Positions 1 through 5,893 of a stretch of DNA of 27,871 nt are shown one piece after another. The position numbers and the translations under genes were made by a program. Below the pieces are notes generated by a model. The model did no database searches, was not told where the DNA came from, and saw only the letters and a list, made by a program, of their open reading frames with translations. Location of the stretch: the NCBI GenBank assembly GCA_040757115.1, contig JBFLYA010000015.1, forward strand, positions 4,463-32,333, in the 5' to 3' direction. The first letter of the stretch is position 1. Every line of letters starts with the position of its first letter. The stretch is from a bacterium. Lineage in GTDB: Bacteria; UBA9089; CG2-30-40-21; SBAY01.

Positions 1-762
1 TCTCTGGCACTGATAAGAGATGTATCTTCATCAGTTTTATCTGAACCATGTGGGATATAAAGTTCTCAGTTCGTTGAATAATAGCTTTTTGCACAGGGGT
101 TTTATCTGAACCATGTGGGATATAAAGAGGAATTTACATCAGCAGGGCTAATACCAGCGGGACCGTTTTATCTGAACCATGTGGGATATAAAGCTTATTT
201 TTGATAAGTGTATCGCAGGTCAAGTTGGAGTTTTATCTGAACCATGTGGGATATAAAGTTTAAATAATAGAGGATACCCTATTCAATTATCAAAGTTTTA
301 TCTGAACCATGTGGGATATAAAGAAAGAAAAATACCCGCATCTTCTATCCGCGGACACGTTTTATCTGAACCATGTGGGATATAAAGAAATTACTTACGA
401 GGCGATGCTATCTGCAAAAGCGGGTTTTATCTGAACCATGTGGGATATAAAGATTTTAAATTCATTTAGTCCGTCTGTGTCCAGGCTCGTTTTATCTGAA
501 CCATGTGGGATATAAAGTATAGGCTCTCTAATTTTTTCAAATACTTCTCTTGAGTTTTATCTGAACCATGTGGGATATAAAGTGTGTCATCCTTACTATG
601 GAACAATGCTTCTCCAGGTTTTATCTGAACCATGTGGGATATAAAGTTATTAATTACGATATTGTGGCTAAGTTCAGCTGGAGTTTATCTGAACCATGTG
701 GGATATAAAGAATGGCACTTGGACGGGGACGGCGAGTAATCCCGAGTTTTATCTGAACCATG
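1..762 (+). CRISPR. CRISPR array, trailer end (12 repeat units, 11 whole spacers)
   Basis: Twelve copies of a 29-nt repeat that begins GTTTTATCTGAACCATG and ends GGGATATAAAG start at 34, 99, 165, 230, 295, 359, 424, 489, 554, 618, 683 and 746. Spacers are 35-37 nt and unrelated to each other; bases 1-33 are the end of a further spacer, so the array continues off the left edge. Ten repeats appear identical. The eleventh (683-710) lacks one T of the T-run and the twelfth (746-762) stops after its first 17 bases, so the right side is the old, leader-distal end. The AAAG 3' end resembles the crRNA 5' handle of I-B-like repeats (ATTGAAAC/G), which agrees with rightward transcription and a leader to the left. 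Repeat and spacer lengths suit a class 1 type I system. The subtype is inference because no cas gene lies in the window. Confidence 0.97.
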
Positions 763-975
763 GAGATTGACCAGAGGTATCAAAGGATTGCATTTGAGGC
801 ATCTGTGCCAAATTCTGTTAAAAGGATACATTGGTTTGTCGATGATAAAAAGATTGCTTTGGTTGGAGCTTCCGAAAAGATATTTTACCAGCCGCAAGAG
901 GGTAAACACAAGATTGTGTGTCTGGATGATGTCGGCAACTCATCGGAGATTTTTATTAAGGTGATTGACAAATGA
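760..975 (+). pseudogene. pbpC: Penicillin-binding protein 1C, C-terminal remnant
   Basis: This is a 71-codon open frame whose only ATG lies inside the truncated last CRISPR repeat; a TGA precedes it in frame and there is no Shine-Dalgarno sequence. The peptide resembles the last part of PBP1C (the BiPBP_C domain): RIxxEAxVP, then RIHWFVDDKK, then EGKHKIVCLDDVG and a final beta-strand ending FIKVIDK. Full-length PBP1C is a periplasmic glycosyltransferase/transpeptidase of roughly 700-800 residues that makes peptidoglycan. Both catalytic domains are missing here, so the fragment cannot have that activity. The reading frame is undamaged, which suggests a fairly recent truncation. The family call rests on pattern recognition of a short domain. 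A small independent protein of this fold is the alternative but is unlikely given the missing start signals. Confidence 0.65.
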
Positions 976-1004
976 TATTAAAAACTAAAGTAACTATTCA
1001 CCCT

Positions 1005-1157
1005 GTAGGAAAGTAAGAGAGTAGGAAAGTAGGAAAGGGGAGACATTGTCCCCAGAAGAGGAATACCGTGCACATCCTTTATCCCTTTCCTACTACCTAC
1101 TTGCCTACTATTTCCTCCTGAAAGTAGGAAAGTAGGAGAGTAGGGAAGTAAGAAAGG
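1005..1157. repeat. Tandem GTAGGAAA-type repeat tracts, direct and inverted
   Basis: A direct tract at 1005-1040 has GTAG-type units every 8 bases. It is followed by an inverted tract at 1084-1116 (CCTACT-type units) and a second direct tract at 1121-1157. A further inverted tract lies at about 1294-1322. Together they can pair into long hairpins. They could act as a transcription end for the leftward ptsI operon, but no classic terminator with a T-run is apparent. Confidence 0.85.
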
Positions 1158-1283
1158 TATTATCTAATTCTATCTAAAGATCTTAATTATCTGCCAGATT
1201 TTCAATCCATTTGGGATATATCTGAAGAAGTGAGTAGGATGCTTATAGGTTTAATCAAATCAATTAAGAGTAAAATAGTATGA
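1152..1283 (+). pseudogene. Four-helix-bundle (S23-like) protein, C-terminal remnant
   Basis: The frame is open from just after a TAA at 1149-1151 to the TGA at 1281-1283, too short for a normal gene and without a start. The peptide contains YYLILSKDLNYL and ends EEVSRMLIGLIKSIKSK. This matches the last two helices of the four-helix-bundle family first known from 23S rRNA intervening sequences, whose typical pattern is YxLxxAKDLGYL followed by EEixrMLxGLIKSL. About two thirds of the usual 110-130 residues are missing. The upstream part is replaced by the GTAGGAAA repeat, whose last bases supply the first codons. The protein's role is unknown in general and this copy is not expected to be made. 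Confidence 0.6.
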
Positions 1284-1350
1284 AGTATTTTCCCCCTTTC
1301 CTACTTCCTACTACCTACTTGCTTGGTATGCTGAATAGTTACAAAGGAAA

Positions 1351-3135
1351 TTAACCCTCCACTAAGTGATTTCTTGCTGTATTGAACAAATGAGGGAATT
1401 TCTTATACATTATTTCCTTGAGGACATTTTCTACTTCATTGACGCTGTGCAATTTAAGTACTTTTTGCACTAATTCTTTTGCCTCAATAAGGCTTATTGA
1501 CCGAATGACCTCTTTTACCTTCGGGATAGAGCTACTGGACATACTTAATTCATCTATTCCCATCCCGACTAAAATAATCGTAAATAATGGGTCACCAGCC
1601 ATCTCACCACACATACCTGCCCATATTCCTTGATTATGTGCAGATTCGATGGTATAATTAATAGAGCGTAAAATAGCCGGATGCGCCGGGTTGTAAAGAT
1701 GAGCTAATTGTTCATTAACTCTATCTATAGCAATGGTATACTGAATTAAATCATTTGTGCCAATGCTAAAAAAATCTACTTCTTTGGCTAAAATATCTGA
1801 AATCATTACCGCTGAAGGCGTTTCAATCATTATGCCAAGTTCTATGTCCGGAGCAAAACATACCTTTTCTGTCTTTAATTCCTGTTTTACCTCTTCAATG
1901 ATTTTTTTTGTAGCTCGTAATTCTTCTAATTCTGAAATCATTGGAAACATTATTCTTAATTTACCAAAGTTACTGGCTCGAAATAGGGCTCTTATTTGTG
2001 TTTTAAACATATTCTTATATCTTAAACATAATCGGATTGCTCGCAATCCAAGGAAAGGATTTACTTCGGTTGGAGTTCCTAAGTAAGATAAATATTTATC
2101 TCCGCCTACATCTAATGTTCTTATCGTCACAGGATATGGTTTCATTTGAGATATTACTTGTTGATATGCCTTTAATTGTTCATCTTCATCTGGTAATTCA
2201 GTTCTATCCAGATACAAAAATTCAGTGCGGTATAATCCAATTCCCTCTGCCCCTTCATCCTTTACAACATCAATTTCCTCTGGTAGTTCAATATTAGCCG
2301 CAATGTCAACTCTATAACCATCATTCGTTTGACCTGGTAAGTCTTTTAGCCAGGCTAAGCCCGCTTTAAATTCATCAAATATCTTTTTCTTTTTCTCATA
2401 TTCGTTAATCGTCGCTTTATCTGGATTAACAATAACAATACCATGACTACCATCAATAATTAGAATATCTCCGGATTTAACTCGAAATGTTATATCTCTT
2501 AATCCAACTACGGCTGGGATTTCTAAAGCACGCGCCATAATGGCGGTATGCGAGGTTTGACCACCTATATCTGTCGCAAAACCCATTATCTTCCCTTTAT
2601 ACATATGCGAGGTATCTGATGGTGTTAAATTATGGGCAACAACAATAACATCTTCCCTTAATTCTTGTAGACTAATATTAGTAGTTCCAACTAAATTTTC
2701 TAATATTCTCCGACCTATGTCATAAATATCTACTACTCGTTCTCGCATATAGTCATCTTCTAATCCAGCGATATTCTCAGTAATCATCTGCAGAACTTCC
2801 CACAAGGCATATTCTACATTGATATATTCTTTTCTTATTCTTTCAGAAACCTCAAAGATAAGTAATGGGTCTTTTAAAATTAATAAATGAGCCTCAAAGA
2901 TATTCGAATATTCTTCACCCATCTCTTCATGAACCTTTTCTTTAATCTTTACAATTTCTTTTTCAGTGCGTCCAACTGCCTCTTTAAAACTATTAATTTG
3001 ATTTTCTACTTCTTCTTCAGTAATCTTTCTCTGGGTTATCTTGAGCTTAGTTATATCTAATAAATAAGCCTTGCCGATAACAATCCCTGGTGAGGCAATT
3101 ACGCCTTTAAGTTTTAACATCGATGAAGTTATCAT
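1351..3135 (-). CDS. ptsI: Phosphoenolpyruvate--protein phosphotransferase (PTS enzyme I)
   Basis: Enzyme I takes the phosphate from phosphoenolpyruvate onto a histidine and passes it to HPr in the cytoplasm, the first step of PTS sugar uptake. The 594-residue product has the usual full length (about 570-590). It begins with the typical KGVIASPGIVIGKA strand. The phosphohistidine motif GGQTSHTAIMARA places the active His at residue 196. The C-terminal PEP-binding TIM barrel shows GLYRTEFLYLDR, LDVGGDK, IGTNDLIQYT and the CGEMAGDP motif with the catalytic Cys. The chosen ATG at 3135 overlaps the ptsH stop codon (ATGA) and has a GGAGA sequence upstream. A second Met at residue 6 lacks a ribosome-binding site. 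It is the last gene of a tightly coupled IIC-IID-HPr-EI operon. Nothing looks damaged. Confidence 0.98.
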   Translation of the reverse strand: MITSSMLKLKGVIASPGIVIGKAYLLDITKLKITQRKITEEEVENQINSFKEAVGRTEKEIVKIKEKVHEEMGEEYSNIFEAHLLILKDPLLIFEVSERIRKEYINVEYALWEVLQMITENIAGLEDDYMRERVVDIYDIGRRILENLVGTTNISLQELREDVIVVAHNLTPSDTSHMYKGKIMGFATDIGGQTSHTAIMARALEIPAVVGLRDITFRVKSGDILIIDGSHGIVIVNPDKATINEYEKKKKIFDEFKAGLAWLKDLPGQTNDGYRVDIAANIELPEEIDVVKDEGAEGIGLYRTEFLYLDRTELPDEDEQLKAYQQVISQMKPYPVTIRTLDVGGDKYLSYLGTPTEVNPFLGLRAIRLCLRYKNMFKTQIRALFRASNFGKLRIMFPMISELEELRATKKIIEEVKQELKTEKVCFAPDIELGIMIETPSAVMISDILAKEVDFFSIGTNDLIQYTIAIDRVNEQLAHLYNPAHPAILRSINYTIESAHNQGIWAGMCGEMAGDPLFTIILVGMGIDELSMSSSSIPKVKEVIRSISLIEAKELVQKVLKLHSVNEVENVLKEIMYKKFPHLFNTARNHLVEG

Positions 3136-3419
3136 TCTTTTTCTCCAAATTTATCTTCGAATAATTTTGTTAATTTTTCTACCGCCTCTATAGCATCTTC
3201 GCCACGGGCATTGATTATTATTTGACTACCTTTGCCTGCATCTAAAGTTCCCACACTTAAAATACTTTTGCCATTTCTCCATCCTGAACCTGAGTTATTA
3301 ACTTTTTTTACTTTAATCACTGATTGAAATTTAGTGGCAGCCTGGACGAAAATAACCGCCGCCCGGAGGTGTAACCCTAATTTATTTTCAAGTGTAACTA
3401 TTTTTTCTACTGAATTCAT
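3132..3419 (-). CDS. ptsH: HPr phosphocarrier protein
   Basis: HPr carries phosphate from enzyme I to the sugar-specific EII proteins. The 95-residue product has the HPr fold pattern: LGLHLRAAVIFVQAA near the N-terminus with the phospho-accepting His17, and NGKSILSVGTL with Ser52 at the site of the regulatory serine. Two features are unusual. The otherwise strongly conserved His-Ala-Arg-Pro is His-Leu-Arg-Ala here, so the helix-capping proline after the active site is gone. There is also a small insertion (NNSGSGW) before the serine loop, which makes the protein slightly longer than the usual 85-90. The start overlaps the IID stop and the stop overlaps the ptsI start, each by ATGA, so translation is probably coupled. 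A regulatory NPr/FPr-like paralogue is possible, but the pairing with ptsI favours the general carrier. Confidence 0.95.
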   Translation of the reverse strand: MNSVEKIVTLENKLGLHLRAAVIFVQAATKFQSVIKVKKVNNSGSGWRNGKSILSVGTLDAGKGSQIIINARGEDAIEAVEKLTKLFEDKFGEKE

Positions 3420-4252
3420 AAAATAATCCTGGTTAAATATTTAATTTCAGAATTATAAGACCACATTCCCATTGTTTTAAAATAAACTAATAAACTTCCT
3501 ATTCCCAATATGAACAAAAAGATAATCAAGGGATTGATTCTTATTCTAATGCCAATGCCTGTGGCAATTATAATTATCAATGATGCTATTCCAATAAAAT
3601 ATTCTTCAACCACATCAGTTTTTATTAAACGGGCATTAAACCAGCAAAGAATACTACTTAATATCCCCAAAAAAGTTATGCCGATAATATTGAATATAGA
3701 TTTAATCCGCTGAAAAGAGATTTTACTGATTTTTTCTATCAGGTTTTCTTTAAGGCAATATCCTTTTTTTATGCCGATAAATCTCAGATATAAAGGCAAA
3801 ATATTATAAATAATCAAGAAAAAGATTATTCCCCAGATAGGGGATTTTTGTATCCAGATTAAGGTTGATGTTATCATCATTCCCAAAAGGGAGATTAAAG
3901 GGCGATATGTTGCCCAAAGCAAACTATCTCCAATTCCAGCCAGAGGCGATGTCATATATGATTTCAAAACCGAGATGTCACCCGGAGTTAATCCTTCTTT
4001 ACCTTTTGATAGTTCTTCTTCTTTTGAAATAATTAAGCCACTAATTAATGTAATAAAATATGGATGCGTATTGATAAATTCTAAGTGTCGAAGAATAACT
4101 TCTTTTTGTGCTCGAGGCTGTGAATACAATTTTTTTATCATTGGGAATATCGTATAAACAAATCCTACACTTTGCATCCGCTCAAAATTGAATATTGACT
4201 GCACAAATAATGACCTGAAAAATATCTTGAAAATATCACCTTTAGATAGCAT
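3416..4252 (-). CDS. PTS system mannose/fructose/sorbose family IID component
   Basis: IID and IIC together form the membrane channel that binds and moves the sugar in mannose-class PTS systems. The 278-residue sequence shows the family pattern: FNFERMQSVGFVYTIFP early, FINTHPYFITLISGLIISKEEE, then the highly conserved region containing PLAGIGDSLLWAT, followed by several hydrophobic segments in the C-terminal half. Length is normal (about 270-300). It starts 4 bases after the IIC stop and overlaps ptsH by 4 bases. The substrate cannot be told from sequence. The IIA and IIB phosphoryl-transfer subunits that should hand phosphate to the sugar are not in the window. Confidence 0.93.
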   Translation of the reverse strand: MLSKGDIFKIFFRSLFVQSIFNFERMQSVGFVYTIFPMIKKLYSQPRAQKEVILRHLEFINTHPYFITLISGLIISKEEELSKGKEGLTPGDISVLKSYMTSPLAGIGDSLLWATYRPLISLLGMMITSTLIWIQKSPIWGIIFFLIIYNILPLYLRFIGIKKGYCLKENLIEKISKISFQRIKSIFNIIGITFLGILSSILCWFNARLIKTDVVEEYFIGIASLIIIIATGIGIRIRINPLIIFLFILGIGSLLVYFKTMGMWSYNSEIKYLTRIIL

Positions 4253-4256
4253 AGAT

Positions 4257-4979
4257 TTAGCCTTTTATAAAAATTACAATACTTGTTAAAATAAAACCAA
4301 CCACAAAATAAATAAAATACTTTCGGACACCTAAAACACTTATTGTTACACCACAACCAAATAATAAAAGTAATGATAAAATAATGGTTAAATCAAATTT
4401 AGTGGCTAAAAGATTTGTTATTATTTTAACGGCAAATAGTCCCACGCTTATAGTCCCAATCAAGATTAAGGAATGGATAATAAAACTCATTCCTATACTT
4501 ATCCAATTTATCCATTCTATCATCTGTAAATTTCCTATTTTAATGTTAGCCTCTAATTTGTGTAAAAGGGTAATATTAACCTTTTCAAACAGGAAAAAAT
4601 CAATCCATCTGGAGAAAAAACCAACAATGATTCCAAAGCACATAGATAAAATTAAAAAACTTACTTTTTCTAACAAATTAAGTGGTAGAGTAATACTACC
4701 AATACAGACTAATGAAGTAGTTGTGATACTACTTATCGCGGCATTTGGTGGAATAATAGTGCCTACTTGAAAGGTATTTATCCAGACTAATTCTAAAACA
4801 ACTCCAATGATTGCCCCTAAATATAATCCTTCTTGAGGCGAGCCTTGCAATGACCCCAGTATTAATCCTAAAAAAGGCGAAACAACCAATGGTCTGGAAA
4901 CCATTGTTTGGGCAATACAATAAGTATCTAAATTTATTAATCCACCAATTAATCCGGCTAATAAGATTTGAACATACAT
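4257..4979 (-). CDS. PTS system mannose/sorbose family IIC component
   Basis: This is the integral membrane sugar-binding subunit that works with IID. The predicted 240-residue protein is very hydrophobic. It carries the family signature QTMVSRPLVVSPFLGLILG, then GLYLGAIIGVVLELVWI and VGTIIPPNAA. The frame can be extended to a TTG at 5033, but that start has no good ribosome-binding site and adds a charged stretch. The ATG at 4979 starts directly at the first membrane helix (MYVQILLAGLIGG) and has AAGG upstream, though at a long spacing of about 13. It is the first gene of the operon; upstream is the mobile cassette at 5044-5297, which may have displaced whatever preceded it. Confidence 0.9.
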   Translation of the reverse strand: MYVQILLAGLIGGLINLDTYCIAQTMVSRPLVVSPFLGLILGSLQGSPQEGLYLGAIIGVVLELVWINTFQVGTIIPPNAAISSITTTSLVCIGSITLPLNLLEKVSFLILSMCFGIIVGFFSRWIDFFLFEKVNITLLHKLEANIKIGNLQMIEWINWISIGMSFIIHSLILIGTISVGLFAVKIITNLLATKFDLTIILSLLLLFGCGVTISVLGVRKYFIYFVVGFILTSIVIFIKG

Positions 4980-5043
4980 CGCAAAATTTCTACCTTTTTG
5001 TAATAGTTTATCACATTTTTTGCCAAAAGTCAAAGGATTTTTT

Positions 5044-5297
5044 GTAACCGTTCACCGCAGAGACACAGAGACGCAGAGAAAAAATTAAAAACTATTTACC
5101 ACATGCCTCATTCCATCACGGATTTTCATCAGAGCAAGCTTTTGAAAACCGACATATCATGATTGATTAACAAATTTGGTTTTGAGGTCCTATGTATTAC
5201 TATGATTGCCTCAATAATCTTTTCTGTTGTCTGATTTATTTCAATCTCTTCTCTGTTCCTCTGCGTCTCTGCGGTGAATTACTATCTGAACGGTTAC
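5044..5297. mobile_element. 254-bp MITE-like cassette with inverted ends and 8-bp target duplication
   Basis: The left end GTAACCGTTCA (5044-5054) is the exact reverse complement of the right end TGAACGGTTAC (5287-5297). GATTTTTT lies directly outside both ends (5036-5043 and 5298-5305), as expected for a target-site duplication. Just inside each end is a CACCGCAGAGAC-type repeat (5053-5078 and 5252-5277) in opposite orientation, so the whole unit can fold back. It holds a GxxExxY-protein remnant and no transposase. The ends are those of the element at 990-1342 with two substitutions. Confidence 0.7.
5129..5278 (-). pseudogene. GxxExxY-family protein, N-terminal remnant
   Basis: On the minus strand an open frame runs out of the CGCAGAGAC repeat and reads INQTTEKIIEAIIVIHRTSK before stopping at 5131-5129. 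This matches the start of GxxExxY proteins (typically ELTEKIIGAAIEVHRxLGPGLLES), a family of small proteins of unknown function. The defining GPGxxExxY motif has decayed to KPNLLI and the remaining two thirds are lost. No start codon or ribosome-binding site is present. The repeat is read in frame as a charged N-terminal extension. It is a dead gene carried inside the cassette. Confidence 0.55.
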
Positions 5298-5341
5298 GAT
5301 TTTTTTAGGGTGTAGGTTTGATAACGAACTATCCCCACTTT

Positions 5342-5893
5342 TTACATCCTCAATTCTACTATCTCATCTCCATCTTTTAAAATTACTTTATCTTCAAATA
5401 CCTCATCTATCTTTACTCCCTGGATGTAATCTCCTCTTTTGAGGAAATATTGATGTGCTTTGTTTCCATCTTGAATTATTGCTGTCCCACTACTTTCATC
5501 AAACACTACTCCTATTAATCTTAAATTACCTACTCGCTTCTCTAAAGGAATTTTAAGCGGTATATCTGGTGGTGGCGATTGTGGCGGTAATTGAGGTGGT
5601 GGTGGCGGAGATATTACGGGTAAATTAGGTAATGACTGCTGAAATACTTTTTCTTTTACCTCTTCCTCCACTAAAGGAACAAATAAATATCGACTACCAA
5701 TTAAATTACTATAATACGAATAGGGTTTAGAAGGAGGTAAATTTATAGCGTTTAACTTTATATCCCCTCTTTTTCTACTGATTACTAATTCTTTTTTGGG
5801 CAAAGAAAAGTAGATAATAATTCCAATACAGAGAATTAAATTTGCTAAATATAAAATTTTATTTGCAAAACTTATCTTATTTAAAGGTAACAT
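5342..5893 (-). CDS. gspC: GspC-like type II secretion inner-membrane protein
   Basis: GspC links the inner-membrane platform to the secretin. The 183-residue product has a short cytoplasmic start, one membrane helix (about residues 12-30), a proline-rich periplasmic linker (about 95-115, runs of PPPPP), and a C-terminal domain (about 120-180). That domain reads LRLIGVVFDESSGTAIIQDG, then a YFLKRGDYI and a VILKDGDEIVEL strand, which fits the HR (homology region) domain. The PDZ or coiled-coil domain found at the end of many proteobacterial GspC proteins is absent. It starts 4 bases after gspM with GAGGAG upstream. Its place as last gene is unusual, since gspC commonly opens the operon. A PilP-like protein is the closest alternative. 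Confidence 0.7.
   Translation of the reverse strand: MLPLNKISFANKILYLANLILCIGIIIYFSLPKKELVISRKRGDIKLNAINLPPSKPYSYYSNLIGSRYLFVPLVEEEVKEKVFQQSLPNLPVISPPPPPQLPPQSPPPDIPLKIPLEKRVGNLRLIGVVFDESSGTAIIQDGNKAHQYFLKRGDYIQGVKIDEVFEDKVILKDGDEIVELRM

Follow-up and report, generated by a model that had tools for sequence, protein, structure and literature searches.

Mini-transposons with probable IS66-type ends enclose small gene cassettes between inverted short-word arms in a bacterium of the UBA9089 lineage

Two small units in the window

We analysed a 27,871-nucleotide stretch of bacterial DNA (henceforth the window; contig JBFLYA010000015.1 of assembly GCA_040757115.1, GTDB lineage Bacteria; UBA9089; CG2-30-40-21; SBAY01), in which an original prediction, made from the sequence alone, had pointed out two short units with common ends and different gene fragments inside. 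The coordinates confirm both units, at 990–1342 and 5044–5297, each with perfect 11-bp terminal inverted repeats (TIRs), and the predicted inverted short-word repeats just inside the ends, the 8-bp target duplication at one unit and the identity of the two protein fragments were likewise borne out. The units belong to a family of hundreds of tiny elements, which most likely use a transposase of the IS66 type.

The first unit (353 bp, no strand assigned) has ends of the CTA type, with the left TIR (GTAACTATTCA) at 990–1000 on the plus strand and the right TIR at 1332–1342 on the minus strand; among elements with duplications only one end pair is commoner than CTA-CTA. An 8-nt word, (GTAGGAAA)n, is iterated in a left arm at 1005–1038 (plus strand), recurs at 1086–1157 and forms an inverted arm at about 1289–1322, and the unit is predicted to fold end to end (z −6.7). 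Positions 1155–1283 (plus strand) encode the last 42 residues, followed by the stop codon, of a four-helix-bundle (4HB)/23S_rRNA_IVP protein, identical to residues 81–122 of the intact protein at locus L079. The flanks match at only six of eight positions (AAACTAAA/AAAGGAAA). Over 189 nt this unit is 99.5% identical in nucleotide sequence to the element at L083 (96% over the first 50 nt), and it is a deletion or rearranged derivative of a 484–546-bp element with a 4HB gene.

The second unit (254 bp, also without an assigned strand) is of the CCG end type. Its left TIR (GTAACCGTTCA) lies at 5044–5054 (plus strand) and its right TIR at 5287–5297 (minus strand), and both sides carry the perfect 8-bp target-site duplication GATTTTTT (5036–5043 and 5298–5305, no strand assigned). 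The iterated word of the left arm, beginning TTCACCGCAGAGACACAGAGACGCAGAG, occupies 5051–5090 (plus strand) and its inverted copy 5239–5278 (minus strand), giving a predicted end-to-end fold with a z of −7.7. Inside, at 5168–5245 on the minus strand, are the first 26 or so codons of a GxxExxY (PF13366) protein, an intact homologue of which is found in L103; the unit arose by internal deletion from a GxxExxY element of 472 bp. Used as a query, it recovered more than 25 copies at 87–98% identity across the host genome (G000) and a sister species of the same genus (G001), most of which begin and end at, or a few bases from, 5044 and 5297. Rfam gave no match in window positions 700–5600. Separately, a CRISPR (clustered regularly interspaced short palindromic repeats) array (repeat approximately GTTTTATCTGAACCATGTGGGATATAAAG) occupies positions 1–760 and stops about 230 bp before the first unit.

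A family of ends amplified in the host phylum

The ends were counted genome-wide, and stretches amounting to about 0.75 Mb of G000 (4.3 Mb, 462 contigs) and about 1.4 Mb of G001 were read. Exact GTAACYRTTCA ends number 1065 (525+540) in the host genome against 22 (9+13) for the reversed control pattern, which excludes a chance origin of the ends; the further copies anticipated by the prediction thus run to more than a thousand. Other members of the phylum carry them too (1074 in G001, 717 in G008 and 307 in G005), and in the sampled genomes outside the phylum the family is near background, except that G026 has a small group of clustered pairs. The end family has been amplified within the host phylum, and the host genus carries a very dense load of mini-transposons, with about 1000 ends per genome.

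Among the paired elements of a 748-kb host sample (n=72, median 246 bp), an exact 8-bp flanking direct repeat was found in 22 cases; repeats of each length from 4 to 7 bp occurred only once or twice, those of 9–12 bp not at all, and a displaced control gave zero or one. With looser ends, exact 8-bp duplications were present in 109 of 311 candidate pairs from both genomes of the genus, and in a subset with 94 exact duplications the target sites were 77% A+T.

For elements with exact duplications, orthologous sites of G000 and G001 (flanks about 91–100% identical) were compared. At ten sites the other species lacked the insertion, its flanks overlapping by 8 bp in nine cases and 7 bp in one, and six rows were filled in both; reading the remaining sites in sequence added two more empty ones (12 in total), the others being nested changes within the same insertion. 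The empty sites, which include those of a 546-bp and a 326-bp element with 4HB sequence (L085, L094), leave a single copy of the 8-bp target, so that presence/absence between the sister species breaks at the ends, as the prediction required. For the second window unit no clean empty site was found in G001, where on contigs C94 and C198 (L233, L245) its right flank, which includes GATTTTTT, adjoins another element (GTAACCGTTCAGGGCTATAC) and its left flank enters unrelated DNA on another contig, a rearrangement at the element boundary. The site of the first unit has no orthologue among the G001 stretches read. A comparison of L109 with G001 likewise returned mainly copies of repeats and no orthologous site.

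TIRs at both boundaries, a fixed 8-bp duplication and empty orthologous sites are the marks of miniature inverted-repeat transposable elements (MITEs) and mobile insertion cassettes (MICs), and no transposase lies inside the units according to the open reading frame (ORF) list of the window and an ORF check of the larger duplicated elements. We class these non-autonomous units as MITEs, or as MICs where the gene is intact.

Passenger genes and their inverted arms

Intact genes of both passenger families occur between GTAAC-type ends (L079, L083, L102, L103, L112), and closely similar GxxExxY genes are found under CTA, CTG and CCG ends, in line with the proposal of common ends with exchangeable contents. 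Other elements with the same ends have different subterminal words (CACGAAG, CACAGAG, GACAGGAT) or no known gene. The passengers, described in the prediction as orphans, do lack an assigned function but are members of curated families, TIGR04256/PF13366 for GxxExxY (L103 protein against TIGR04256, E 6e-48) and TIGR02436/PF05635 for 4HB (L079 protein against PF05635, E 6e-35). In GxxExxY proteins D67, E77 and K79 are invariant, keeping the D..ExK pattern of PD-(D/E)XK nucleases. A third GxxExxY lineage was seen at L298:14570-15132, with arms TTTTGACAGGATGAACAGGAT, ends GTATCTATTCA/GTAACTATTCA and an exact 8-bp duplication. G026 and G058, from another phylum, are rich in 4HB genes, which often form divergent, back-to-back pairs separated by a few hundred bp, a layout that differs from the one in the host.

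We surveyed 80 GxxExxY loci from many phyla, counting arms at a score of at least 13. Most of the genes have on either side an arm built from an iterated word, 6–9 nt long, like ACCACAGAGACACAGAG, ACCACGAAGGACACGAAG or ACCGCGGAGGACGCGGAG, the two arms being inverted relative to each other (50 of the 77 targets scored, as opposed to 1 of the 143 control ORFs). The same holds in the host for 13 of 18 4HB and 11 of 18 GxxExxY genes against none of 28 control ORFs, and in a distant class for 9 of 14 4HB genes against none of 10 controls. Words vary by locus (CGGGACTC, GTGTCG, TATAGTTT, GCAGAGGG, GTAGTCA, AATTCAC, AAATTCCA, GTAGAGA, CACGAATTA and others), and what the arms conserve is iteration and inversion, not sequence. 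None of the 80 surveyed GxxExxY genes has a GTAAC end within 150 nt. Such arms are found without GTAAC ends in many phyla; the inner repeats stand outside the transposon-end system and belong to the passengers, a qualification to the original prediction, which had placed them inside the ends. Among the publications open to our search, which took in few subscription papers and no preprints, none links GxxExxY or 4HB genes with arms of this kind.

A passenger that sits between its own arms might be expected to act on them, all the more so as GxxExxY proteins retain the nuclease pattern and a 4HB unit bounded by arms, with no GTAAC ends, is present at several loci. The nuclease or the 4HB protein would then bind the arms and help or replace the IS66 transposase, making units with intact genes semi-autonomous. 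We regard this as rather unlikely, given that other subfamilies without these genes or arms have the same ends and 8-bp duplications, and that members of these gene families elsewhere have no GTAAC ends.

According to a crude ORF caller, host 4HB cassettes precede a gene read in the same direction in every one of 14 cases and GxxExxY cassettes farther afield in 44 of 62, the latter often 45–75 nt ahead of the next ORF. The loci occupy spaces between protein-coding genes or apparent CRISPR arrays, not rRNA genes. At L076 and L081, 4HB cassettes with CGGGACTC and GCAGAGGG arms stand beside or within what appears to be a CRISPR array, with repeats of the form GACCTGATGAATAAGGGATTGCGAC. At L096:1300-2050 an AAATTCC-armed 4HB cassette lies within a perfect 20-bp inverted repeat, GGTAACTAGTGCTCTGTCGC, and is absent at the orthologous G001 site; this repeat looks like a second vehicle for the armed 4HB cassette.

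At three orthologous sites the sister species holds a different armed cassette or a gene-less hairpin in place. The L089 site has, at the same spot and in the same orientation between flanks that are 90–93% identical, a 4HB gene with AAAAGTC arms in G000 and in G001 a 4HB gene quite unlike it, with TTTAGTG arms. The L097 site has a 4HB gene with GTAGAGA arms versus a CACAGAG-armed unit. Beside rpmF (named from its encoded sequence) G000 has a 4HB gene with GTAGTCA arms, G001 the gene-less hairpin GGTAATTG and G003 another, TTTTGGAT. These differences are possibly independent insertions at a tolerated spot. The 4HB unit at L093, which lacks GTAAC ends and shows neither matching ends nor a target duplication, has full copies elsewhere in G001 (545–559 bp, 94–96% identical, with the same boundaries) besides many short arm copies, and at its orthologous G001 site the hairpin alone is left; at least one gene-less hairpin is a deletion product of an armed unit. 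Given the in-place differences and the L093 copies at other loci, the armed cassette behaves as a unit.

The different words held at the rpmF-adjacent spot in several species, and the wide differences among arm sequences, might instead be the work of slippage and conversion, the genes being long-term residents before whose ribosome-binding sites short words expand. To this, too, we give little credence: the genes at the L089 site are themselves unalike, the L093 unit recurs with fixed boundaries, and inverted arms on both sides are far commoner than at control ORFs.

An IS66 transposase as candidate mobiliser

A transposase gene with the same ends, which the original prediction had proposed to look for, was found by searching the phylum for PF03050, the IS66 transposase. 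Four IS66 genes occupy the whole length between perfect 11-bp repeats: the host's own L074 (1563 bp, CCGTTCA end), L133 (1505 bp, an open 476-aa ORF, ends GTAACCGTTCA) and L132 (1737 bp, an open 541-aa ORF, ends GTAACTACTCA, NCBIfam IS66 E 2e-84), both from the same order as the host, and L134, a partial gene with ends GTAACTATTCA. An inward end lies 100–330 nt downstream of the DDE domain at 13 of 23 IS66 loci, compared with 5% of random host positions. Lineage A (L074, L133, L135, L139) has CCGTTCA in all four, lineage B (L132, L134, L143, L145, L137) CTATTCA or a CTACTCA-like variant, and lineage C (L034, L149) CTGCTCA; by this comparison the end type follows the transposase lineage, CCG with A and CTA with B. 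Within lineage B, a host fragment (L035) is 97.5% identical over 40 aa to L134, a copy from another family of the phylum, which points to recent horizontal transfer.

IS66 elements with GTAAGCG/GTAACCG termini (PMC12888890), and 8-bp duplications at the IS66-family elements ISPpa5a and ISPpa7 (PMC3281130), are on record. The present family likewise has termini starting GTAA and an 8-bp duplication, and the host or its relatives carry an IS66 element bounded by these ends. Since the ends flank IS66 genes in relatives and the end type follows the lineage, the units are mini-transposons of IS66 type, for which a transposase of that family most likely acts in trans. By every feature tested the outer layer is a mini-transposon of the IS66 type; what is unusual is the passenger system.

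We therefore hold it very probable that two layers are nested here, IS66-type mini-transposon ends outside and an armed small-gene cassette inside, an interpretation that supports most of the original one and extends it. A DDE transposase of the IS66 family would recognise GTAAC[CT][AG]TTCA in trans and insert the units into A+T-rich 8-bp targets, with CCG ends served by lineage A and CTA ends by lineage B. The inner payload would be a GxxExxY gene of PD-(D/E)XK type, or a 4HB gene, between inverted iterated-word arms. When transcribed, the arms may pair into one long stem, akin to the intervening sequence (IVS) of 23S rRNA that RNase III removes. The predicted RNAs pair end to end (z −4.7 to −7.7), which is not independent evidence because inverted repeats necessarily pair. 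A cassette could sit harmlessly in operon gaps because its transcribed arms would form this stem. In the host phylum, IS66-type ends presumably enclosed several armed cassettes and then amplified them, and internal deletions may have produced many of the 200–350-bp units.

Several observations weigh against this two-layered picture. The sole near-full-length IS66 copy found in the host (L074) has two in-frame stops, and no intact copy is present in the host assembly; several host IS66 genes are truncated at contig ends, which indirectly suggests unassembled copies. G008, with 717 exact ends, gave no PF03050 match at E 0.001, and its mobiliser may be lost, unassembled or different. An exact 8-bp duplication is absent at the four end-matched IS66 copies. 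The closely related GxxExxY copies L117–L120 lack convincing arms, and the processing of arms in RNA is a prediction from the fold.

The missing duplications and the G008 result would be natural if the ends belonged to a non-IS66, perhaps undescribed, transposase, with the IS66 genes as fellow travellers or trapped between ends. This is improbable in view of the four independent IS66 genes within perfect 11-bp repeats, the end types that follow the lineages, and the termini and duplications recorded for IS66. Chance inverted repeats or attC-like integron cassettes, which small cassettes with variable orphan genes might bring to mind, have a negligible probability, being refuted by the empty sites and contradicted by exactly 8-bp duplications and dispersed inverted ends.

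Discussion

For nested IS66-type units as we describe them, two widespread orphan families gain a genomic context, as passengers between short-word arms that were mass-mobilised by IS66-type ends in one phylum. More tentatively, and with somewhat less than even confidence, we propose that armed cassettes form a class of their own among very small mobile elements, pan-bacterial, living mainly in operon gaps and exchangeable in place for a cassette with another gene and word, for which IS66-type ends would be one of several vehicles. They could be a common origin of rRNA IVS, of hairpins like the short tandemly repeated repetitive (STRR) sequences and of apparent CRISPR- or operon-associated orphans. 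One testable hypothesis would thus join rRNA IVS, STRR hairpins and the short-word repeats ahead of 4HB genes.

Among known systems, repetitive extragenic palindromic (REP) sequences and bacterial interspersed mosaic elements (BIMEs) with REP-associated tyrosine transposases (RAYTs) combine a gene flanked by palindromic repeats with many gene-less copies. Here words differ between loci and the proteins are from other families, and we dropped RAYT/REP as a candidate because the words are not conserved. Other insertion sequence families with 8-bp duplications, also dropped, are not known to have termini that fit. Integron gene cassettes, with attC sites and an array at attI, were also rejected, the units being dispersed and having TIRs and 8-bp duplications instead. 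With MITEs and MICs the units share perfect TIRs, a duplication of fixed length, the lack of a transposase, internal-deletion derivatives and high copy number; they differ in having one end system common to two unrelated small gene families, and about 1000 ends in 4.3 Mb.

Single-gene IS66 forms and tIS66 elements resemble the family in GTAA-type termini, a DDE_Tnp_IS66 transposase, 8-bp duplications (PMC3281130) and passenger capture, tIS66 elements being known to carry passenger genes, e.g. ISPa75-fosZ (PMC12888890). In contrast, the passengers here travel without a transposase in units of 200–550 bp, at hundreds of copies per genome and with an 11-bp end repeat.

The IVS of 23S rRNA, an S23/4HB ORF in a stem, has been described as selfish and possibly mobile (PMC4990558, PMC11270868) and is scattered in rRNA genes of the Candidate Phyla Radiation (PMC11270868). 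It is like the armed cassette in that a 4HB gene lies between inverted complementary arms folding into one long stem. The cassettes described here, however, occupy operon gaps, CRISPR arrays and mini-transposons, not rRNA, their arms are iterated short words, and the layout extends to GxxExxY genes. Cyanobacterial STRR sequences consist of tandem 7–8-nt words forming intergenic hairpins (PMC2670836), much as the arms and the rpmF-site hairpins do, a likeness of layout in which the words vary by locus; here, unlike there, a gene is flanked on either side by words arranged as inverted arms. Lastly, a 2013 survey reported 18 23S_rRNA_IVP genes in cas loci, including one that separates cmr3 from cmr2, and its discussion treated them as CRISPR-Cas-associated functions (PMC3936711). 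By analogy with the cassettes seen here, a simpler possible reading is that these genes in cas operons are inserted armed cassettes.

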